Origin: Candidatus Gastranaerophilales bacterium
GTDB lineage: Bacteria > Cyanobacteriota > Vampirovibrionia > Gastranaerophilales > UBA9971
DNA: 32,535 nucleotides
Assembly: GCA_028278305.1 (NCBI GenBank)
Contig: JANQEP010000066.1
Coordinates: forward strand, 1-32,535
Direction: 5' to 3'
Positions 345 through 32,437 of this stretch are shown piece by piece. The position numbers and the translations under genes were made by a program. The notes beneath the pieces are model-generated. The model was not told the DNA's origin, made no database searches, and saw only the letters and a list, made by a program, of their open reading frames with translations. Every line of letters starts with the position of its first letter. The stretch's first letter is position 1.

Positions 345-2390
345 CTACTTAACGTATTTTGATAATATTTTGTCTTTAAAGATCTTCTCTATCTTCTCAG
401 GAGTTGCTTCAGGAATGAATTCTTCGTCAATTACCACTGAAGGTCCTTGTGAGCAGTGTTCCATACAGAATGTAGCCCTTATGTTAACCTTGTTTTCAAA
501 ACCGTAATCTTTTATTTGTTTTGTCAGAACTTCGATTATGTTATAAGAACCTTTTGCATAACAGCTTGTTCCCACGCATACTTGAATATCAGTTACTTCT
601 TCACCTTCTTCAGCTGAGGAAAGAGAAATAATTTCCCCAAGAATCCTCTTTCTGTTCTTATAATGCGTATGAAGAAGTTCATGTGCGGTATGGCTGTTGG
701 GCTTTTCAAGCCATTTGTTATAAAGCCTGATAATTTCAGGATTATCATGGGATTTATGCAGAGGAGTATGGACATCCGCCTGATAAAGCCCTTTCATCCT
801 CTTTTTTTTGATCTTTTTGTCCTTATAGCTCTGAGGCTGCCCCGCACCGCCAATGCATCCGCCCGGGCATGCCATTACTTCTATCATATGGTATTGAACT
901 TCGCCGTTTTTAATTTTATCAATTAATTTTGCAGCTTCGCTTAAGGTGTTTACAACAGCGAGTTTTACTTCTGCGCCTTCGATTTCCATTGTAAACTCTT
1001 TTAAAGTATCAAAGCCTCTGGCTTCATTGATAGCGACTTTATCAATACGCTTGCCTGTAATGGTTTCATATGCGGTTCTCAAGGCTGCTTCGGCAACACC
1101 GCCTGATGAACCGAAAATTACGCCTGCGCCTGTAAAGATTCCAAACGGGGCATCAAGGTGCTCGGGCTGGAGATTATTAAAATCAATCCCGGCTTCTTTT
1201 GCCATTCTTATAAATTCCTGGGTGGTAAGCACAAAATCAACGTCTTTTATCCCGTCTTTCTGGAATTTTTCTTTATTTGCCTCGGATTTTTTAGCTGTAC
1301 ACGGCATTATAGAGACCACAACCAGGTTTTCCTTTGAAACCCACATTTCCTCGGTAAGAAGTTTTTTTGCCACCGAACCGAACATTTGTTGCGAGGAACG
1401 GCAGGTAGAGAGGTTTTTAAGCAGATCAGGGTATCTTTGCTCGACAAACCTTACCCATGCCGGGCAGCAGCTTGTGAATAGCGGCAGGTCTTCACCTTTT
1501 TTAAACCTTTCTATAAATTCTGCGGCTTCCTCCATAATGGTCAGATCAGCAGTGAATGAAGTGTCAAATACCGCGTCAAAGCCGATTTTTCTGAGGGCAG
1601 CGGTGATTAAGCCAAGAGTGTTTTCCCCGGGAGGAATCCCAAAGGCTTCACCGGCTGCAACCCTTACTGCCGGGGCAATCTGGGCTACTACTTTTTTCCC
1701 GGGGTCAAGTAACTGCTCCCATACCCTGTCAACATCGGATTTTATCCTGAGAGCGCCTGTAGGACATACTGAAGTACACTGACCGCAGTATGTACAGTCA
1801 ACTTCTCTTAAATCTTTTCCGTAAGCAGGCATTACTGTGGATTCAGAACCCCTGTTTACAAAGTTAAGACAGCCCGTTCCCTGAATTTCACGGCAGGCTC
1901 TCACACATGCCCCGCAGAGTATGCATTTATTAGGATCCCTTACTATCGAAGGGTTAGTATCATCAATGGGAAGCTGTTTTTCCCTGCTTTTGAACCGGAC
2001 GTTTCTTACCCCGAGTTTTTTTGATAAGTCCTGAAGATCACAGTTCTCACTTTTTGCGCAAACTGTACAATCCCTGTCATGGCTTGCCAGAAGAAGTTCA
2101 ACAGTCATTCTTCTGATTTTTCTTGTTCTTTCGGTATTAACTCTTACTTTCATGCCGGACTCCGGCTTTACGGTACAGCTTGTCTGGATTCCCCGTCCTT
2201 CAATTTCCACAACGCACATCCGGCATGCGCCGTATGTACTTAAATCCGGTCTGTAGCAAAAAGTCGGGACTTCTATGCCGGCTTTTCTTATTACTTCCAG
2301 CAGGTTTTTCTCGTCGGAAAAAGTGACTTCCTCTCCGTCAACGCATAATTTATTTTCAATTTTTTTATCATCTTTTACAGTAGTGGTCAT
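345..2390 (-). CDS. hydA: [FeFe] hydrogenase catalytic subunit HydA (NADH-linked, trimeric type)
   Basis: Catalytic subunit of a cytoplasmic multimeric [FeFe] hydrogenase, reversibly making H2 from NADH and probably reduced ferredoxin. Domains in order: N-terminal [2Fe-2S] (C45, C56, C59, C72); His/Cys [4Fe-4S] (H104, C108, C111, C117); two [4Fe-4S] ferredoxin motifs (C156-C166 and C199-C209); H-cluster domain with TSCCP (C308 proton relay, C309 ligand), MPC (C364) and ACPGGCIGGAGQP (C508, C512); the small-subunit region; and a C-terminal thioredoxin-like [2Fe-2S] domain (C605, C610, C642, C646). At 681 aa with this C-terminal extension it matches the bifurcating HydA type. The ATG has an AAAAGGAG ribosome site 8-9 nt upstream. 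It is last in hydC-hydB-hydA, 114 bp after hydB. The maturases HydE/F/G are not in the window. Bifurcation is inferred from architecture. Confidence 0.96.
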   Translation of the reverse strand: MTTTVKDDKKIENKLCVDGEEVTFSDEKNLLEVIRKAGIEVPTFCYRPDLSTYGACRMCVVEIEGRGIQTSCTVKPESGMKVRVNTERTRKIRRMTVELLLASHDRDCTVCAKSENCDLQDLSKKLGVRNVRFKSREKQLPIDDTNPSIVRDPNKCILCGACVRACREIQGTGCLNFVNRGSESTVMPAYGKDLREVDCTYCGQCTSVCPTGALRIKSDVDRVWEQLLDPGKKVVAQIAPAVRVAAGEAFGIPPGENTLGLITAALRKIGFDAVFDTSFTADLTIMEEAAEFIERFKKGEDLPLFTSCCPAWVRFVEQRYPDLLKNLSTCRSSQQMFGSVAKKLLTEEMWVSKENLVVVSIMPCTAKKSEANKEKFQKDGIKDVDFVLTTQEFIRMAKEAGIDFNNLQPEHLDAPFGIFTGAGVIFGSSGGVAEAALRTAYETITGKRIDKVAINEARGFDTLKEFTMEIEGAEVKLAVVNTLSEAAKLIDKIKNGEVQYHMIEVMACPGGCIGGAGQPQSYKDKKIKKKRMKGLYQADVHTPLHKSHDNPEIIRLYNKWLEKPNSHTAHELLHTHYKNRKRILGEIISLSSAEEGEEVTDIQVCVGTSCYAKGSYNIIEVLTKQIKDYGFENKVNIRATFCMEHCSQGPSVVIDEEFIPEATPEKIEKIFKDKILSKYVK

Positions 2391-2504
2391 TTATTTTTCT
2401 CCTTTTACATTTAGGATAAATATTTTTCCGTTTTATTGCCTTCAGGGTTTGTTACTCAGATTGCCGCGCCGCTTTACTTTGTTTTTTGCTCCCCGCAATT
2501 ACGC
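2391..2504. repeat. hydB-hydA gap with a degenerate dispersed-repeat core
   Basis: On the minus strand, positions 2500 to about 2453 read like a decayed version of the short repeat core seen elsewhere in the window (ATTGCGaGGAGCgaa...GCGaCGtGGCAATCTG). Here it begins AATTGCGGGGAGC and ends GCGGCGCGGCAATCTGAGT. It separates two genes that would otherwise be tightly packed. No promoter or terminator was recognised. Confidence 0.4.
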
Positions 2505-4364
2505 TTATCTCTTACTGATTGCATCAACCGGGCAGGCTGGGGCACATGCCCCGCACTTAATACATTTTTCCTGGTTAATTAAGAAGGGCTTTCTGATCTC
2601 ACCTTCTATTGCATCAACCGGGCAGGTTTTTGCGCATTTTGAGCAGCCAATGCATCTTTTACTGTCAATCTTAATTACTTTTAAAGCCTCACATACCCCT
2701 GCCGGGCATCTTTTACCGACAATATGGGCAAGATATTCTTCCCTGAAGTACTTTAAAGTGGATGCAATAGGATTGGGGGCTGTTTTTCCAAGCCCGCATA
2801 AAGACCCGAACCTTACGACCTCGGCTAGCTCCTCCAGAAGCTGGAGATCTTGCAGAGCGGCTTCTCCGCTTACTATTTTTTCTAAAATATTTAGCATCTG
2901 CTTTGTGCCTTCACGGCAGGGAATGCATTTTCCGCAGGACTCGTTCTGGGTGAACTGGAGAAAGAACCTTGCCACTTCCACGATGCATGTGTCTTCATTC
3001 ATAGCTACAAGACCGCCTGAACCTACCATTGCCCCTACTTTTGTCAGGGATTCGTAGTCAAGGGGCATATCAAGATGCTCTTCAGTAAGGCATCCGCCTG
3101 AAGGTCCGCCTATCTGGACCGCTTTAAACTTCTTATTGTTTCGCAGCCCGCCCCCGATTTCAAAAACAATTTCTCTCAGGGTTGAGCCTAAAGGAACTTC
3201 TATAAGCCCGGTGTTATTGACTTCGCCTGTAAGCGCAAATGTCTTTGTCCCTGCACTTGTCTCCGTGCCGTATTTTTTATAGGTATCAGCGCCGGTAAGT
3301 ATTACTGTAGGCACATTTGCAAATGTTTCAACGTTGTTAATCAGCGTGGGCTTGCCGAATAATCCTGATTGAGCAGGGAACGGAGGTTTTGGCATCGGCA
3401 TTCCTCTTTCCCCTTCTATAGAAGCTATTAATGCTGTTTCTTCGCCGCAGACAAAAGCGCCTGCACCTTCCTTAATTTTTATCCTGAACGAAAAACCGCT
3501 CCCGAAAATATTTTCCCCGAGAAAACCTTTTTCTTCAGCCTGTTTTATGGCAATTTTCAATCTTCTTACGGCAAGCGGGTATTCTGCCCTTACGTAAATA
3601 TACCCTTCATCGGAACCAACTGCATATGCAGCGATTAACATCCCTTCAAGCAGCCTGTGAGGGTCGCCTTCCATTATTCCGCAGTCCATGAACGCGCCAG
3701 GATCGCCTTCATCAGCGTTACAGATCACATATTTTTTATCGGAGTCATTTGCGCGGACAAACTGCCATTTCCTGCCTGTGGGAAAACCTCCTCCTCCTCT
3801 GCCTCTCAGTCCGCTTTTTACCATTTCTTCGCAGACTTCTTCAGGTTTATAATTCTTTAAGGTATAATCAAGAGCTTCATATCCCCTTGAATAAATATAT
3901 TCCTCAATGCTTTCCGGATCAATTTTTCCGCAATTATTAAGTATAAGCTTTATCTGAGATTTATAAAAATCTATTTCAGAAGTGTTTTTAAATTTATGTT
4001 TTGTCTTTGGGTCTTCATAGAGAAATTCTTCTATGATTTCGCCGTTTTTAAGGGTTTTTTCTATTATTTCCTCTACGTTTTCAGCTTTTACTTTTACGTA
4101 AGTAAGGTCAAGATCAGGAATAGAAACAAAAACACCCTGCTCACAGAAGCCATGGCAGCCGGTTTTTACGGAAGTGATTTTTTTGTTTTCCTTCTTAAAC
4201 TGCACGTCAGCTCCGAGTTTAAGAAATTTTTCATATATATCAAAAGCCCCGTTGGCAACGCATCCTGTACCGGAGCAGATTAAAACCCTCATACCCGTCT
4301 TTTGGAAATACTCTTCAGCTTTTTTAAACTCTCTTTTTAAGTCTGTTTTTATCATCTCAGTCAT
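2505..4364 (-). CDS. hydB: NADH-binding flavoprotein subunit of [FeFe] hydrogenase, HydB (NuoF-like)
   Basis: NuoF-like flavoprotein that takes electrons from NADH through FMN and passes them along iron-sulfur clusters to HydA. The 619 residues contain an N-terminal thioredoxin-like [2Fe-2S] domain (C30, C35, C70, C74); the NuoF core with glycine-rich FMN/NADH motif RGRGGGGFPTGRKW (187-200) and NADEGDPGAF (216-225); a [4Fe-4S] site (ESCGKCIPC with C477, C480, C483, plus C523); and two C-terminal ferredoxin motifs (C571-C581, C601-C611). The extra N- and C-terminal cluster domains separate it from complex I NuoF and match HydB of bifurcating hydrogenases. Its ATG overlaps the hydC stop by one base (TAATG), suggesting translational coupling, and AAGGAG lies about 11 nt upstream. 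Ferredoxin as second substrate is inferred. Confidence 0.95.
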   Translation of the reverse strand: MTEMIKTDLKREFKKAEEYFQKTGMRVLICSGTGCVANGAFDIYEKFLKLGADVQFKKENKKITSVKTGCHGFCEQGVFVSIPDLDLTYVKVKAENVEEIIEKTLKNGEIIEEFLYEDPKTKHKFKNTSEIDFYKSQIKLILNNCGKIDPESIEEYIYSRGYEALDYTLKNYKPEEVCEEMVKSGLRGRGGGGFPTGRKWQFVRANDSDKKYVICNADEGDPGAFMDCGIMEGDPHRLLEGMLIAAYAVGSDEGYIYVRAEYPLAVRRLKIAIKQAEEKGFLGENIFGSGFSFRIKIKEGAGAFVCGEETALIASIEGERGMPMPKPPFPAQSGLFGKPTLINNVETFANVPTVILTGADTYKKYGTETSAGTKTFALTGEVNNTGLIEVPLGSTLREIVFEIGGGLRNNKKFKAVQIGGPSGGCLTEEHLDMPLDYESLTKVGAMVGSGGLVAMNEDTCIVEVARFFLQFTQNESCGKCIPCREGTKQMLNILEKIVSGEAALQDLQLLEELAEVVRFGSLCGLGKTAPNPIASTLKYFREEYLAHIVGKRCPAGVCEALKVIKIDSKRCIGCSKCAKTCPVDAIEGEIRKPFLINQEKCIKCGACAPACPVDAISKR

Positions 4365-4894
4365 TAATTTTTTTCTCCTTCCCCGGATCTCTCTAATAGC
4401 TGGTCAATAATTATTGTAACAGCTTCAGCGGTGACTTTTGAGTATACTTTTTCATTTATTAAAACAACCGGGGCAAGAGCGCATGCGCCGACGCAGCGGA
4501 CTGTTTCCACGCTGAACTGCAAATCTTCAGTAGTAAACTTACTGCCTGTAAGCCCCAGTTTCTTTTTAATGGCGTTATATACAGGCATGCTCCCGCGCAC
4601 GTGGCATGCTGTTCCGTCACATACCTTGATTTCATATTTACCTTTCGGGTCAAGGCTGAACTGGCTGTAAAATGTGGCAACACCGTATACGCTTGCCGGG
4701 GAAATCTCCATAATCGTTGCTATATATGTCATGATTTCCTCCGGAAGATAGCGGTACTCTTCCTGCACTTCCTGGAGAATTGCTATCAGGTTGGATTTTT
4801 CGTATTTATATTTTTCTACGATTTCATTAACTTTACGAAATTTTCTTTGTTGTTCAAATACCTTTTCTATGTTTTTTTTCGCCTCAGCTACCAT
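4364..4894 (-). CDS. hydC: [2Fe-2S] subunit of [FeFe] hydrogenase, HydC (NuoE-like)
   Basis: NuoE / 24-kDa-type thioredoxin-like [2Fe-2S] protein, third subunit of the HydABC hydrogenase. The 176 residues begin with a helical segment, then carry the two cysteine pairs of the family: C92-x4-C97 (CDGTAC) and C134-x3-C138 (CVGAC), with the conserved GVATFYSQF stretch at 71-79. Length is typical of NuoE. It is the first gene of the operon. The ATG follows a strong AAAGGAG site at 4904-4910. A near-perfect Rex-type operator sits 24 bp upstream of the start codon, so the operon is probably tuned to NADH/NAD+ ratio. Confidence 0.94.
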   Translation of the reverse strand: MVAEAKKNIEKVFEQQRKFRKVNEIVEKYKYEKSNLIAILQEVQEEYRYLPEEIMTYIATIMEISPASVYGVATFYSQFSLDPKGKYEIKVCDGTACHVRGSMPVYNAIKKKLGLTGSKFTTEDLQFSVETVRCVGACALAPVVLINEKVYSKVTAEAVTIIIDQLLERSGEGEKN

Positions 4895-6494: not shown

Positions 6495-6663
6495 AATTAC
6501 TTGTTTTTCAAATAGCTCCGGGCTATAGTATACTAAAAATTCCGTGTATAGTATTAATTTTTTATACGGATCTTTTGTTAAAAAGTTTCCTTTTCAGCTT
6601 TTATTCTATAATATTGAAAAGTAACATCATAGTTTAAACTAATAAAGAGTGGAGATCTACTAA

Positions 6664-6786
6664 ATGAGTGAGTACATTTTTAAAATGAAAAAAGGTGAAA
6701 TCGAGATTGAGTTAAAATCTGATGATTCTAAATTTATCGAGGACCAGCTTGATAAATGGAGAGACACCCTTGTTAAAGAGGACTAA
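6664..6786 (+). CDS. 40-aa small protein, homologous to the N-terminus of the next gene
   Basis: A 40-residue protein, very short but well supported. It has an ATG, a GGAG ribosome site (TGGAGATCTACTAA before the ATG), ends 33 bp before the next gene on the same strand, and aligns without gaps to the first residues of that neighbour (14 of 31 identical: M1, S2, Y4, F6, K7, K9, K10, E14, S19, D21, F24, Q28, D30, K31). The pattern is two amphipathic beta-like stretches (FKMKKGEIEIEL) followed by a helix (FIEDQLDKWRDTL). I know no function. A free-standing copy of a module that also heads a larger protein suggests a self-association or partner-binding element. Confidence 0.75.
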   Translation: MSEYIFKMKKGEIEIELKSDDSKFIEDQLDKWRDTLVKED

Positions 6787-6819
6787 GGGTATTTTCATTT
6801 TTTTAACCGGGAGATTTTA

Positions 6820-8001
6820 ATGTCATACTACAGCTTCAAAATAAAAAAAGACAAACTTGAGCTGGCAGTGATTTCAGAGGATAAATACTTTGTTATTACC
6901 CAGTTTGATAAGGTTTATCGTGAAATAACCGAAAAAGCCGAAAAACCAAAAACTGAAATACCGCCGGAATCAAAAAAAGAAGAAGCTCCTGTTATTAAAG
7001 GGCAGGAAAAAGTAGAAACTGCTTCTGTAGAAGCTTCTAAAACTTCCGTAAACGAAGAAACCCCGCAAGAAAAGGTTGAAGAAATTAAAAAAGAGGAAAT
7101 TAAAGCTTCTATAAAAACAGAAGAACCTCTCAAAAAAGAGAAGGCGCCAGAGAAAAAAGAAGAGCCTGAAACTTCCCCTCAAAGTGAAGAAGAAAAAACA
7201 AAGCAGGCTAAAGCCGAAATTAAAGAACCTGAAATCTCTCTGGCACCTGAGTCGCAAAAAGTAAAAGCTGGCGAAGAAACAGGCAAAGCTGAAGAAGTTG
7301 AGGGTTTCCCCGGGCAGGATGACACGGAATTTAAGGAAGAAACTGCTCTGGCTAATGAGCAAGAGGAATCGCTCAAAACAGAAACAAAAGATGATTTTCA
7401 AAAAATTATAGAGGAAAAATTAAAAGAAGAAGAGCAAAAAGACGAATTTTCTGAAGAATCACCCCCTGAAGAAATAAAAGAAACCATAAGCTATTACCAG
7501 GAGTCTGACGAGGATGAAAATCAGGGTTTAAAGGCTGAAGAGGAAATAGCAGAGACTTTACGTAAAAATTTTGAGGAAAAACCGGCAAAAAGCACAAAAG
7601 TATATGATATTCTCCAGGAAAAACTGGCATCTCTTCCCGAAGAAGAAAAAGACAGGCTAAACCTTAACAGAAAGAAGCCTGAAGAAAAAGAACCCGCTTC
7701 AGCACTCAGGTTCAAGGGGCTGGATGATTTAATATATTTAAAAAAGCCTCAGACAAAACTTGATTATCTTTTAGTTACCTCTTATTTTCTTAAAGAGAGC
7801 GAGAAAAAAGAAAAATATTCACTAAAACAAATTAATTCAAAGATTATCCCGCAGATTAAAGAACCCATCGACCATTCCGTAGTGCATGAATCAATAGCGC
7901 ACGGCTATTTTGAAGTAATTCCGGATACTGAAGGCACTTGTGACATAACAGAATACTCAATTACCGAAGAGGGCGTGGATTATTTATTAAATGAACTTTA
8001 A
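6820..8001 (+). CDS. Lys/Glu-rich protein with N-terminal short module and C-terminal winged-helix-like domain
   Basis: Three parts are visible in 393 residues. Residues 1-40 form the same small beta/helix module as the 40-aa protein just upstream. Residues about 41-290 are low-complexity and charged (runs of E, K, A, P), probably disordered. Residues about 298-393 are ordered: helical TKLDYLLVTSYFLKE, SLKQINSKIIPQI, a DHSVVHESIAHGYFEV turn and a TEYSITEEGVDYL end. This resembles a winged-helix fold I associate with uncharacterised prokaryotic proteins. No membrane segment or signal peptide is seen, so it is likely cytosolic. GGGAG lies before the ATG. It is probably co-transcribed with the 40-aa gene. 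The winged-helix call is inference; DNA binding is not shown. Confidence 0.8.
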   Translation: MSYYSFKIKKDKLELAVISEDKYFVITQFDKVYREITEKAEKPKTEIPPESKKEEAPVIKGQEKVETASVEASKTSVNEETPQEKVEEIKKEEIKASIKTEEPLKKEKAPEKKEEPETSPQSEEEKTKQAKAEIKEPEISLAPESQKVKAGEETGKAEEVEGFPGQDDTEFKEETALANEQEESLKTETKDDFQKIIEEKLKEEEQKDEFSEESPPEEIKETISYYQESDEDENQGLKAEEEIAETLRKNFEEKPAKSTKVYDILQEKLASLPEEEKDRLNLNRKKPEEKEPASALRFKGLDDLIYLKKPQTKLDYLLVTSYFLKESEKKEKYSLKQINSKIIPQIKEPIDHSVVHESIAHGYFEVIPDTEGTCDITEYSITEEGVDYLLNEL

Positions 8002-8075
8002 ACAACCCGAGTCGTCAATTAGCCAAAAGCAAGGATATGACCATGCAATTAGCAACTCGAGTTATTAGGAATTTT

Positions 8076-8294
8076 CCTGGTCTCCCGAAATTGAGTTGAT
8101 AACATCCAAATTGTCATTGCGAGGGCTCAATGACAATTTGAGAGCCCGTGGCAATCTGTGGAACTCCCCGTGTCAAAGCTTAAAATTTATAGCTTAATGC
8201 GACGTTGCTCAGATTCCCACCCCGTGTCAAGCACGGGGCAGGCTTCCGCGCAATGACATTTCGGGGGCTATCAACATGGTGCCGGGAGACAAGG
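8076..8294. repeat. MITE-like repeat element A, copy 1 (longer form)
   Basis: A 219-bp non-coding element with inverted ends: CCTGGTCTCCCG at the left and CGGGAGACAAGG at the right. Inside is a perfect 13-bp hairpin (8107-8119 with 8128-8140) and the widespread GTCATTGCGAG...GTGGCAATCTG core. A second copy at 20982-21151 matches closely but lacks about 48 bp, present here at roughly 8212-8260, which carries its own hairpin (CCCCGTG / CACGGGG). No coding capacity, so any movement would need a transposase elsewhere. Confidence 0.8.
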
Positions 8295-8360
8295 AGAATT
8301 TTAGAATTGAATAGCCCTGCCTGTGGAGAACTTACTTCAAACTCCCGGCAGTAAGTAGAT

Positions 8361-8540: not shown

Positions 8541-9065
8541 ATGGCTAAAAATATCGTGCTTACAGGACTGATGGGTTCAGGAAAAACCACACTCGGTAAG
8601 TATCTTACCGAAGTAACGGGCATGGAATTTATTGATACCGACGATTTAATAATTCAAAAAGCAGGAAAACCCATAAGCAAAATATTCGCAGAAGACGGCG
8701 AACCCTGTTTCCGTGACCTGGAAGCTGAAGTAATAGAAGAATCAGCCCAAAAACAGGACTGCATAATTTCCACGGGCGGAGGGGCGGTTCTCAGGATCCA
8801 AAACATTGAAAACCTCAAGGCTTCAGGTATTGTATTCTACCTGCAAGCCTCAGCTGAAGCTCTATACGAGAGAACAAAACACGATACTTCAAGACCGCTG
8901 CTAAACACGGATGATCCCGCAGGGGTTCTCAGAAAACTTCTTGCATCAAGAAAACCGTTTTATGAAAACGCACATTTTACTGTTAATACTGAAAATAAGA
9001 CAATGGAAGAGGTTTCTAAACAGGTTCTTCGACTTTATCAAAGCCAGGCTGGGCATTTTGCATAG
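8541..9065 (+). CDS. aroK: Shikimate kinase
   Basis: Phosphorylates shikimate at the 3-hydroxyl with ATP, fifth step of chorismate and aromatic amino acid synthesis, in the cytosol. Visible features: Walker A GLMGSGKTT (9-17), shikimate-binding D34 in DTDD, R58 in CFRDLE, the GGG motif at 79-81, and the lid arginine R118 in TSRPLL. Length of 174 aa is typical. The ATG has no strong ribosome site. No other aro gene is adjacent. The last 50 bp overlap the 3' end of the convergent SbcC-like gene, so its C-terminal residues (VLRLYQSQAGHFA) are encoded opposite that gene's end. Confidence 0.95.
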   Translation: MAKNIVLTGLMGSGKTTLGKYLTEVTGMEFIDTDDLIIQKAGKPISKIFAEDGEPCFRDLEAEVIEESAQKQDCIISTGGGAVLRIQNIENLKASGIVFYLQASAEALYERTKHDTSRPLLNTDDPAGVLRKLLASRKPFYENAHFTVNTENKTMEEVSKQVLRLYQSQAGHFA

Positions 9066-11451
9066 ATACCACTGAGCTTCCTGTTTCAGAATCAAATTCT
9101 ATGTTTATTATATTGTCTATATCATCCTTGATATCTTCAATATGGGTTATCAAAATAACCTGCTCAAAATGATCAGTAAGGTTTCTAAGAAGCTGGATCA
9201 CATTAGCCCGGCGACTTTCGTCAAGGGAGCCGAATATTTCATCAAGAATTAACAAGGAAAGGGCTTTTCCTGATCTTTGAGCTATAATCTGGGAAACCGC
9301 AAGTCTTATGCATAAATTAACAATGTCTTCCTCTCCGCCTGATATGACAGGCTTGATTTCCCCGTCATCATGCAGGCAAATTTCGTATTTTTCGGTTAAT
9401 TCCAGCATGCAATACCTGTTATCCGTAAGATCAGAAAGGAATTTACCCGCAAGATCAGATATCTCAGGACGGGCGTTGTCATTAAGTTTTTCCCATAGTT
9501 GGTTATAAAACCTGTCAAGCTCATAAAGAATGTTGGCTTCTTCTTGCTTTTGCTTTATTAAATCAGCTTTTTCCTTATTAGATTTTTCTATTTTTTCTAT
9601 ATGCTCAAGCTCTCTGGATATACTTTTCTCTTCTGCCTCGGTTTTTATGAGCTCTTCACGGTTTTTATAGAAAATTTCCCTTGTCTCATGGTAAATTTTC
9701 TCGGTTTCTTTATATTTTTCCCCGGAATAGTCAAGCCTGTTTAAATCCTGGTCTATGGAGCTTAACCTGGCTTCTATCTCCTGCTTTGTTTTCAGGGCTT
9801 CATTATGGTCTTTTTTTATTCTATCAAAATTGGAAAGCTCAGCTTTAAGAGCAAGAATCTTCTCATATTGATCCCTTAAAGGGACTATCTGCTCTCTCAG
9901 CTGCTTTAAAAGGTCTATACTAAAACCTTCAGGAATCCCTTCCAGCTCCTGCACGACTTTTTCCAGTTCTTTTCGGCAGTTGTCAATTTCGGATTTTACA
10001 TTTACATAACGCCGTTTTTCTGCTTCATAATCGCCTTTTATAAGTGTAATTTCGTTAAATTCCCTTTCTTTCTGCTGTTTTTGCTTTTTTAAACCGTCAA
10101 GCTCAGCCTGTAGCGGGGAAGTTTTCTGTTGCTCCTGCCTGATAGCGCTGGTTTCATCTGCTAAATTCCGGATCTGGCTGTGGAAATTCCCTGTTACTTT
10201 GTTAAATTCGTCTTTTAGCGGTCTTTCACAGGTTGGACAGGTCCCGTTTTCACCTTTTTCGGTAATTAAAGCCAGTTGTTTTTTGATTTTTTCCATTTCT
10301 GAATGCTTTTGCTGTATTAGAACCTCTTTTTCCCTTTTTTGTCCTGTTAAATCAGATTCAATTTTTTGAATTTTCTTGTTTAACGAGCTTATTTCCTCGC
10401 TTACCGCGGGAAGTTGCTCTATTTTCGCCTTTTTATCCTTGCCGGATTTTACTATTTCATCCAGATAAAGCTGTTTTTCATTTATTTCTTTCTTAAATCC
10501 CTGTATTTGCAAAGAAAATTTTTGTCTTAAAGCGTCTTTTTCCTGTAAAAATTCCTGTTTCCTTATCTTTTTATCCAGTTCCCTGTATTCATCTTCTATT
10601 TTAGCGAAATCGGAAACTTTTTTATTTTTTACTTCAAGAGTTTTAATTTGCTCCGATAAATTTTGGGTATTTTTTTCCTGATAATCTTTTTTTTCAGCTA
10701 AACTCTTTTTTTCCCAGCTGAATTTATCAAAACTATCTTTTTTTGCTTTAATTTGCGCCCAGCCAGGCTCAATTTTTAACAAATTGTCAGAAATTGTATT
10801 AAAATGTTTCTGTTTTGTATTCAATTCGTCTGTGATTTTATCCAATTTTATCCGAATTTCGCCTTTTTCCCGAATTAAAACGTCAATATCCTGAATTCCT
10901 TGTTTCAGCCCGGAAACTTCTCTTTCTATATTGTTTTTATCTGATCTTGCAGCTTCTTGGGCTTCTCTTATCTTGTCGTAGTTTAATACTCCGGAAATAA
11001 ATTTCTTTCTTTCAACAGGTCCCTGGCTTTTAAGAAAATTAAGTTCTTTTTGACCCGTAAAATAAGTATTAAAGAACTCATTTTTAGTCATTCCAATCTT
11101 TTCTATAAGGTATTTAGTCACTTCCTGCTGGGAAGTCACAACCGGGGCAGCATTATCTTTCAGGTATACTTCCGCTTTATCAAGATATCTGAGCACTTTG
11201 AAAGTATCTTTATCAATTTCAAACACCAGTTCAACCAGCACTTTTGTGCGCGGTTTTGCCCTGTTAAACTTTATGGTATCTTTATTACCCCGTGCAGCTT
11301 CGGTTCCGTATATTGCCCAGGTGATAGCTTCAAGAATAGTGCTTTTTCCGGAGCCGTTAGCACCGTTTATTATAGTAATTCCGTCGCTAAACTCCAGATA
11401 GGAGTCCTCATGCTGACGAAAATTCTCAAGTTTCATGGATTTTAATTTCAT
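9016..11451 (-). CDS. SbcC/Rad50-like SMC-family ATPase
   Basis: DNA repair ATPase of the Rad50/SbcC type, which normally works with an Mre11/SbcD nuclease on DNA ends and hairpins. The N-terminus has Walker A GANGSGKST (about 30-38). A long coiled coil (about 165-640) is split by a zinc hook CPTC (C404, C407). The C-terminus has the signature ISGGEE (about 702), Walker B LLILDE (about 733) and an H-loop histidine (LITHIED, about 769). At 811 aa it is slightly shorter than most SbcC, nearer archaeal Rad50. The start has AAAGG close upstream; Met6 is an alternative. No sbcD/mre11 lies in the window, although the two are usually adjacent. It converges on and overlaps aroK by 50 bp. Confidence 0.9.
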   Translation of the reverse strand: MKLKSMKLENFRQHEDSYLEFSDGITIINGANGSGKSTILEAITWAIYGTEAARGNKDTIKFNRAKPRTKVLVELVFEIDKDTFKVLRYLDKAEVYLKDNAAPVVTSQQEVTKYLIEKIGMTKNEFFNTYFTGQKELNFLKSQGPVERKKFISGVLNYDKIREAQEAARSDKNNIEREVSGLKQGIQDIDVLIREKGEIRIKLDKITDELNTKQKHFNTISDNLLKIEPGWAQIKAKKDSFDKFSWEKKSLAEKKDYQEKNTQNLSEQIKTLEVKNKKVSDFAKIEDEYRELDKKIRKQEFLQEKDALRQKFSLQIQGFKKEINEKQLYLDEIVKSGKDKKAKIEQLPAVSEEISSLNKKIQKIESDLTGQKREKEVLIQQKHSEMEKIKKQLALITEKGENGTCPTCERPLKDEFNKVTGNFHSQIRNLADETSAIRQEQQKTSPLQAELDGLKKQKQQKEREFNEITLIKGDYEAEKRRYVNVKSEIDNCRKELEKVVQELEGIPEGFSIDLLKQLREQIVPLRDQYEKILALKAELSNFDRIKKDHNEALKTKQEIEARLSSIDQDLNRLDYSGEKYKETEKIYHETREIFYKNREELIKTEAEEKSISRELEHIEKIEKSNKEKADLIKQKQEEANILYELDRFYNQLWEKLNDNARPEISDLAGKFLSDLTDNRYCMLELTEKYEICLHDDGEIKPVISGGEEDIVNLCIRLAVSQIIAQRSGKALSLLILDEIFGSLDESRRANVIQLLRNLTDHFEQVILITHIEDIKDDIDNIINIEFDSETGSSVVSMQNAQPGFDKVEEPV

Positions 11452-30868: not shown

Positions 30869-32437
30869 ATGAGAAAAATTTTTCTGCTGGTAAATTTAGT
30901 AATACTTTTTTTTATTTCAGACAAAGCATTTGCAGAAGGAATTGACAAAAAAATAGATAATCTGATTGCACCGGCTTCTGACGCTGTTTCCGGGCTTGTT
31001 TTTTACCCGGTAAGTATAAACAGTGTAGATATGCCTGTAATTATTATCTGGCTTTTAGTCGGCGCTATAGTCTTTACAATTATAACAAAAGGTATCGGGG
31101 TCTGGGGGTTCAAGCACGCTGTTGAACTGGTTTTTGGAAAAAAGAAAAATAATGAAGTAAAAGACAGCGGTGATAAAGGGGAAGTTTCTTCGTTTCAGGC
31201 GCTTTCAACCGCATTATCAGGAACAATCGGGCTTGGTAACATAGCAGGTGTTGCAATAGCTATTACAATGGGAGGTCCGGGCGCTGTTTTCTGGATGATT
31301 ATAGGTTCAATCTTCGGAATGGCTACAAAATTTATGGAAGCCACACTCGGAATTAAATACAGAAGGGTAAATCCGGATGGAAGTATTTCCGGAGGACCAA
31401 TGTATTACATTTCCCATGGACTGACGAGGATGAAAATGAGATGGCTTGGACAGCCCCTTGCTGTAATATTTTCCTGGATGTGTATTGCTGCAGCTATTGG
31501 AGGCGGTAATATGTTCCAGGTCTCAATGGCAACTTCCCAGATTGTAGAAGTAACCGGAGGCCAGGACAGTTTTTTTCAGTCTAATAGCTGGGTTTTTGGA
31601 CTTTTAATTGCGCTAATCATCAGTATGATAATTATCGGTGGAATCAAGAGCATAGCAAAAGTTACAGAAAAAATAGTGCCTTTTATGTGCATTCTTTATA
31701 TGATTTCAGGATTTGTAGTGATTTTATATCATTTTACGGAAATTCCAAATGTAATAGCCCTGGTTATTAATGAAGCTTTTAACCCCGAAGCTGTAGAAGG
31801 GGGTATAATCGGTTCTATTATCTGGGGTCTAAGACGTTCAGTTCAATCAAATGAAGCAGGTGTAGGCACTGCGCCAATTGCATATGCTACGGTAAAAACC
31901 CATGAACCCGTATCTCAGGGATTTGTTTCCCTGCTGGAACCTTTTATTGACACAGTTATTTTATGTTCAATTACGGCTTTTGTCATTCTGGTAACCGGAG
32001 CACATGCAAGTACAGAAGGTCTTGTGGGAGTTAAGCTTACTTCCATGGCTTTTGAGTCTGTAATACCATTTTTTCCTTATATTTTAGCGCTTGTAATTAC
32101 TCTTTTTGCTCTTTCAACATTACTCTCCTGGTCTTATTACGGTCAAAAAGCCTGGAACTATCTTTTTGGAGAAGGTGAAAAAAGAACCAGAACCTATCAG
32201 TTAATTTTTTGTATTTTCATAGTCATAGGATCTTCAATGAATATGGCAAGTATCATTGATTTTACGGATGCAATGCTGCTTGCAATGGCTGTTCCTAATA
32301 TTATAGGAATATATCTGCTAACTCCCCAGGTATTAAGAGAACTGAGAGTCTACTGTGCAAAATACAAGGTGGGAATATTTAAAAACTCCGTCTCAGAAGT
32401 ACTTGCAGATTCCGCTGTCCCGGAAGTAAAAAGATAA
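30869..32437 (+). CDS. Alanine/glycine:cation symporter (AGCS family)
   Basis: Inner-membrane secondary transporter importing alanine or glycine with Na+ or H+. The 522 residues start with a signal-like helix (about 3-22), then about ten membrane helices. The AGCS core is clear: STALSGTIGLGNIAGVA (113-129), GGPGAVFWMIIGSIFGMATKF (135-155), GGPMYYI, and the SNEAGVGTAPIA motif in the second half. Length is slightly above the usual 450-500 aa because of the N-terminal extension (about 1-55). A GGGGA lies about 12 nt upstream of the ATG. It stands alone at the right edge. Confidence 0.93.
   Translation: MRKIFLLVNLVILFFISDKAFAEGIDKKIDNLIAPASDAVSGLVFYPVSINSVDMPVIIIWLLVGAIVFTIITKGIGVWGFKHAVELVFGKKKNNEVKDSGDKGEVSSFQALSTALSGTIGLGNIAGVAIAITMGGPGAVFWMIIGSIFGMATKFMEATLGIKYRRVNPDGSISGGPMYYISHGLTRMKMRWLGQPLAVIFSWMCIAAAIGGGNMFQVSMATSQIVEVTGGQDSFFQSNSWVFGLLIALIISMIIIGGIKSIAKVTEKIVPFMCILYMISGFVVILYHFTEIPNVIALVINEAFNPEAVEGGIIGSIIWGLRRSVQSNEAGVGTAPIAYATVKTHEPVSQGFVSLLEPFIDTVILCSITAFVILVTGAHASTEGLVGVKLTSMAFESVIPFFPYILALVITLFALSTLLSWSYYGQKAWNYLFGEGEKRTRTYQLIFCIFIVIGSSMNMASIIDFTDAMLLAMAVPNIIGIYLLTPQVLRELRVYCAKYKVGIFKNSVSEVLADSAVPEVKR

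Follow-up and report, generated by a model that had tools for sequence, protein, structure and literature searches.

Microproteins of the Id and LITTLE ZIPPER types are stand-alone versions of the interaction domain of a longer, regulator-like partner, which they bind and block; these families are eukaryotic and unrelated in sequence to the proteins considered here. In kleisins (ScpA, MukF and Scc1), a small N-terminal domain is followed by a long disordered linker and a C-terminal winged helix. Here we characterize a bacterial gene pair in which a 40-aa protein is encoded directly ahead of a 393-aa protein headed by the same module. The pair lies in a 32,535-nucleotide stretch of DNA (the whole stretch analysed, hereafter the window) from a Candidatus Gastranaerophilales bacterium of the class Vampirovibrionia. 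Among the titles found in literature searches on Gastranaerophilales, Melainabacteria, Vampirovibrionia and RecN/kleisin, none describes it.

A free module precedes a protein headed by the same module

The small gene (6664..6786, forward strand) runs from an ATG start to a TAA stop and encodes an acidic protein (pI 4.64) predicted to fold as beta-beta-alpha. A ribosome-site-like GGAG (6651..6654, forward strand) is located 9 nt 5′ of its start. Following a spacer of 33 bp, the long gene (6820..8001, forward strand, ATG start) has its own ribosome-site-like GGGAG (6809..6813, forward strand) 6 nt upstream, in agreement with the preliminary description, which had placed a 40-aa reading frame 33 bp before a 393-aa frame, each with a ribosome site. 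No terminator-like site was found between the two genes in the window, and the predicted fold of the intergenic spacer was no better than that of shuffles (z -0.27). Among relatives, a Shine-Dalgarno-like 4-mer is present 5′ of the small gene in 73 of 79 (a raw count made without a shuffle control).

The free protein and the N-terminal module of the long protein (6820..6933, forward strand) are identical at 14 of 31 positions without gaps (13/30 when the start methionine is excluded). When the second segment was shuffled 100,000 times, neither the score nor the identity count was reached once. When profiles of 19 free and 18 N-terminal modules were compared with each other (hhalign), the match had a probability of 98.7% (E 1.5e-16). 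The two modules are therefore paralogues, as had been proposed from the identity alone, and they are the only copies in this genome at E <= 0.01.

Predicted structure of the long protein

Downstream of its 40-aa module, the long protein continues into an acidic low-complexity linker of 215 residues (residues 41-255; 6940..7584, forward strand; pI 4.47; 58% E+K+P+A) and terminates in a C-terminal domain (7744..7998, forward strand; pI 4.98). Across 79 relatives its length ranges from 174 to 786 aa, with nearly all of the variation in the linker. AlphaFold2 modelling of the last 150 residues (56 rows, from 55 of the 80 loci plus the window) returned a winged helix with pLDDT mostly above 90 (84 residues at >=90). 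The long protein is thus confidently predicted to end in a winged helix behind an acidic linker. The model falls among MarR/PadR-type winged helices, with VIA-align Z scores of 8.6-9.9 across 70-86 residues. The many other winged helices recovered include chains of the cohesin head module and of MukBEF, at Z 8.7. Foldseek gave a best E of 0.002, and a search of a viral structure library recovered generic winged helices. The acidity of the domain weakens the case for a plain DNA-binding role.

When both modules were modelled as a read-through tether (39 rows), each adopted a strand-strand-helix fold (mean pLDDT 65.5, pTM 0.36); the low pTM suggests no fixed packing between them. A fold search with this two-module model listed no similar solved structure (best Z 3.3), and since the model is of middling confidence, this absence means little.

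Searches of Pfam, NCBIfam, PHROGs, PADLOC and PDB sequences assigned neither the small nor the long protein, nor the single-chain relatives described below, to a credible family. In Pfam, neither the C-domain of the window nor the first of the 16 rows in the C-domain set had a family, and across these rows sub-threshold matches were scattered (Pfam, NCBIfam). Isolated weak matches were taken as chance: murD (0.00083) and MecA (0.0033) for single C-domain rows, and phrog_17585 (0.0013) for one headed protein. The same applies to a PCNA chain (0.005, C-domain profile) and designed TIM barrels (0.00016, small-module profile), for which comparison with the PDB yielded no passing stretch. PADLOC gave one weak match, LmuB (0.0047), for the single-chain protein L228. 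The free protein and the long protein fall outside every Pfam, NCBIfam and PHROG family.

The pair is conserved and the small gene is under purifying selection

Of 122 relatives recovered in a collection scan, we retained 80. At all 80 of these loci the free gene lies ahead of a module-headed long reading frame, at a spacing of -4 to +213 nt (<=20 nt in 67 of 79 relatives); locus L069 is masked inside the long gene, with its N-terminus still readable. The pairing of a free module with a module-headed long protein, noted in the preliminary description, is thus strongly supported. Test profiles were built from families f1-f7 only, which left 67 of the 80 loci as independent tests. Here the C-domain was detected at E < 0.001 in all 67 left-out long frames, and the N-module in 64 at E < 0.05 (56 at E < 0.001), the misses (L102, L106 and L109) having diverged N-termini. 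Neither was matched in any of 976 other frames of at least 100 aa.

In a sample of 60 relatives, the small gene was found in 20 (families f1 and f3-f7); the 40 without a credible copy belong mostly to family f2, in which chance small-module matches within long frames turned up in two genomes. Across a wider sample of 289 class genomes, the small-module profile has matches at E <= 0.01 in 84, and by our count 66 carry the free gene; G221, with a weak match containing two stops, was set aside. The preliminary description had regarded relatives with a missing or interrupted small frame as evidence against its proposal. No free frame is broken in any of the 80 loci, while 17 of the 289 class genomes (genera g28, g38 and g40) have a module-headed protein without a free gene. 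Genus g41 likewise keeps the long protein and lacks the free gene. These results suggest that the free copy is dispensable in these four genera.

Comparison of the small gene of the window with that of its congener L062 gave pS 0.84 and pN 0.012, and comparison with L066 gave pS 0.79 and pN 0.077. The median dN/dS was 0.085 over the 1191 of 3240 pairs retained by a pS filter of 0.1-0.7, and two pairs reach 0.5. Taken together, these results establish that the small gene is a real gene under purifying selection, and that in Gastranaerophilales and further Vampirovibrionia the two genes form a genuine unit.

Genomic neighbours of the pair

An mnmA match follows the long gene in 33/80 loci. In 32 of these the next reading frame starts at -29 to +17 nt (the remaining locus is the masked L069), and MnmA identity was confirmed by NCBIfam in 4/4 cases tested. 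Within the order, the pair often overlaps mnmA. In the genome of the window this linkage has been lost, with mnmA on contig C98, and it is kept in the congener G001 (L063). At 16 other loci the pair is accompanied by two membrane-like reading frames, tentatively spmA/spmB; the two tested gave no NCBIfam match. Other neighbours include murA.

The intergenic stretch at 8010-8360 of the window, between the long gene and a shikimate kinase gene, corresponds to the position of mnmA in many relatives and by eye contains repeat-like inverted motifs (CATTGCGAGG...). Elsewhere in the window, three genes at 345-4894 (reverse strand) encode an iron-only hydrogenase catalytic subunit, a NuoF-like flavoprotein and a thioredoxin-like 2Fe-2S protein, a layout resembling that of an electron-bifurcating hydrogenase. 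Two genes from the pair, 9016-11451 (reverse strand) encodes an 811-aa Rad50/SbcC-like ATPase with a Rad50 zinc-hook match, which scores far under the curated Rad50 cut-offs. An AgcS-type amino acid carrier (TIGR00835) is encoded at 30869-32437 (forward strand).

The free module is the most conserved part of the pair

Mean identity over 31 loci with mnmA was highest for the free protein (82%), followed by MnmA (57%), the C-domain (46%) and the N-module (39%). The free copy is thus the most conserved piece, more so than MnmA. Distances between free modules and between N-modules correlated with r 0.75, and the partial correlation was 0.11 given the C-domain and 0.10 given MnmA; no specific co-evolution of the two modules was found in this mirror-tree test of 31 loci. 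The preliminary description had suggested paired self-assembly or competition. The pairing on which that proposal was built holds throughout, whereas neither fixed packing nor specific co-evolution of the two modules was detected.

The modules of class members with a single copy (12 sequences from g28, g38, g40 and g41, representing few independent lineages) scored 35.3 bits against the free profile, compared with 22.0 for paired N-modules.

Single-chain relatives outside the class, some of them adjoining recN

Outside the class and within the same phylum, the single-chain profile has matches at E <= 0.001 in 20 genomes; these are weak in G306 and G454 and strong in the other 18. No free module gene was found outside the class; there the small-module profile matches long frames only, apart from a 29-aa frame with a stop in G423. 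Modules of the single-chain relatives (n=14) scored a median of 23.5 bits to the free copy and 16.6 bits to the N-module. At the C-terminal end, profile A4 matched the C-domain of the window at 3.1e-7 and profile A3 matched several outgroup C-domains. The long protein of the window thus shares both an N-terminal beta-beta-alpha module and a profile-homologous C-terminal winged helix with the single-chain family.

Fifteen upstream sides of single-chain genes were examined (10 plus 5 of family f18), and recN was located directly upstream in 7, with gaps of -17 to +8 nt. These recN neighbours match TIGR00634 at 1e-99 to 1e-133; two score above the curated cut-off, and the five below it have reading frames cut by the fetched stretch. 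Combined with the domain layout, this linkage hints at a role in repair or on the chromosome, a speculative reading taken up in the Discussion. Within the class, 271/289 genomes have recN whether or not they have the pair, so co-occurrence says nothing about partnership, and recN was rejected as a partner on this criterion. In the genome of the window, recN is on another contig (C74), unlinked to the pair.

Several further proteins of related layout were observed. A second module-headed winged-helix paralogue of 248 aa, lacking a free gene, is encoded at L193:2044-2790 (reverse-complement coordinates; genome G011, C9), and the next reading frame looks, from its motif, like a CheY-type receiver. 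L224 (G157) and L225 (G260), of 311-316 aa, begin with a module-like stretch, contain a winged-helix-like one and extend into an additional C-terminal region; they come from genera in which we did not find the pair, and are possibly a separate branch of the module-winged-helix family. L228 (G454, family f40), a 187-aa protein with the same layout, comes from another class of the phylum and matches the profile weakly (7.8e-6).

Discussion

These data support a module duplication in one lineage, strict co-maintenance of the two genes and a functional split in which the ancestral, constrained surface remained with the free copy. We tentatively favour a model, to which we give somewhat less than an even chance, in which the pair is a two-chain form of an ancestral one-chain adaptor and the free module and long protein co-assemble. 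The ancestor would have been a small adaptor composed of a beta-beta-alpha module, a disordered linker and a winged helix, an architecture that other lineages of the phylum have on a single chain. An additional, stand-alone copy of the N-module would then have been gained, encoded just upstream and translated with the long protein, a direction of duplication that we infer. The free copy would have retained the ancestral sequence, and with it a putative role in docking onto a conserved cell component; the copy heading the long protein would have diverged in sequence without losing the fold. The two modules may still co-assemble, such that the free module holds the conserved target and the winged helix engages a second partner. 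The 80/80 pairing with its short spacers, the recovery of both domains at the left-out loci, the purifying selection on the small gene, the single-chain relatives outside the class, whose modules score closer to the free copy, and the rate asymmetry argue for this model; the unpacked tether model, the lack of specific co-evolution, the genera without a free gene and the acidic C-domain argue against it.

The same rate asymmetry, the unpacked tether and the lack of specific co-evolution would also fit two modules that never meet, the free one serving a conserved target alone and the N-module binding something else, with the genes held together by dosage or operon inertia. We consider this less probable, since pairing is kept in 80/80 loci across neighbours as different as mnmA, the two membrane-like reading frames and murA, which makes inertia alone a poor explanation. 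Rather unlikely is a competitor role, in which the free module takes the site of the N-module or caps it, leaving the long protein inactive until the ratio shifts. The free copy is indeed the same module, encoded upstream, presumably (judging from the spacing) in the same transcript unit, and it is closer to the single-chain relatives than the N-module is, but a protein acting purely as an inhibitor would not have to be the best conserved component, and in conservation the free copy far exceeds the long protein.

We see little prospect that the pair is a toxin-antitoxin system or another selfish element. Two adjacent small co-translated genes, one with a winged helix, would suit such a system, but the distribution is vertical, class-wide and single-copy rather than patchy or mobile, queries with relatives from outside the class gave no plasmid or phage match, and PADLOC returned none for the long protein. 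It is scarcely credible that the small frame is a chance frame, or that one gene was split by a frame or stop error. The spacer of the window is in frame (36 nt with the stop), as it is in 35/79 relatives; against this, pS far exceeds pN in the comparison with L062, spacers are out of frame in 44/79 and others contain several stops. A read-through product was rejected for the same reason, as the spacer frame is not kept and many spacers carry extra stops.

It is improbable, though worth stating alongside the two-chain adaptor model, that the pair descends from an undescribed accessory factor of RecN/SMC-like repair machinery. The ancestral chain would have been co-translated with recN and kleisin-like in layout, with a long disordered linker joining a small N-domain to a winged helix at the C-terminus. 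In Vampirovibrionia the docking module would have split off as a nearly invariant 40-aa subunit, and in Gastranaerophilales both genes would have been re-wired into the mnmA operon.

A 40-aa protein that is more conserved than MnmA, class-wide and outside family models points to a function under strong selection for which annotation has no name. The lineage also provides a natural series of states (single chain; free module with headed chain; headed chain alone; neither), so that why a module is freed beside its own parent becomes directly testable.

Among known systems, MarR/PadR-type regulators resemble the C-domain in fold, but the domain of the window is acidic and has no sequence-family match, and to our knowledge the N-module and long linker are absent from those families. 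The resemblance to kleisins lies in the overall layout and in the single-chain relatives adjoining recN, an SMC-like gene; however, the N-domain of kleisins is helical and binds the SMC neck, whereas that of the long protein is predicted to be beta-beta-alpha, there is no sequence link, and recN is unlinked in this genome. The pair recalls Id-type and LITTLE ZIPPER-type microproteins in having a free domain copy, and differs in that its two genes lie side by side on one strand and that partner binding is hypothetical here. Further counterparts are the single-chain relatives (such as L174, L175, L177 and L179), which have the same N-module, linker and winged helix and align as one family. Six aligned members form one chain of 156-208 aa with no free gene nearby, whereas in the window the free gene is present beside the long one.
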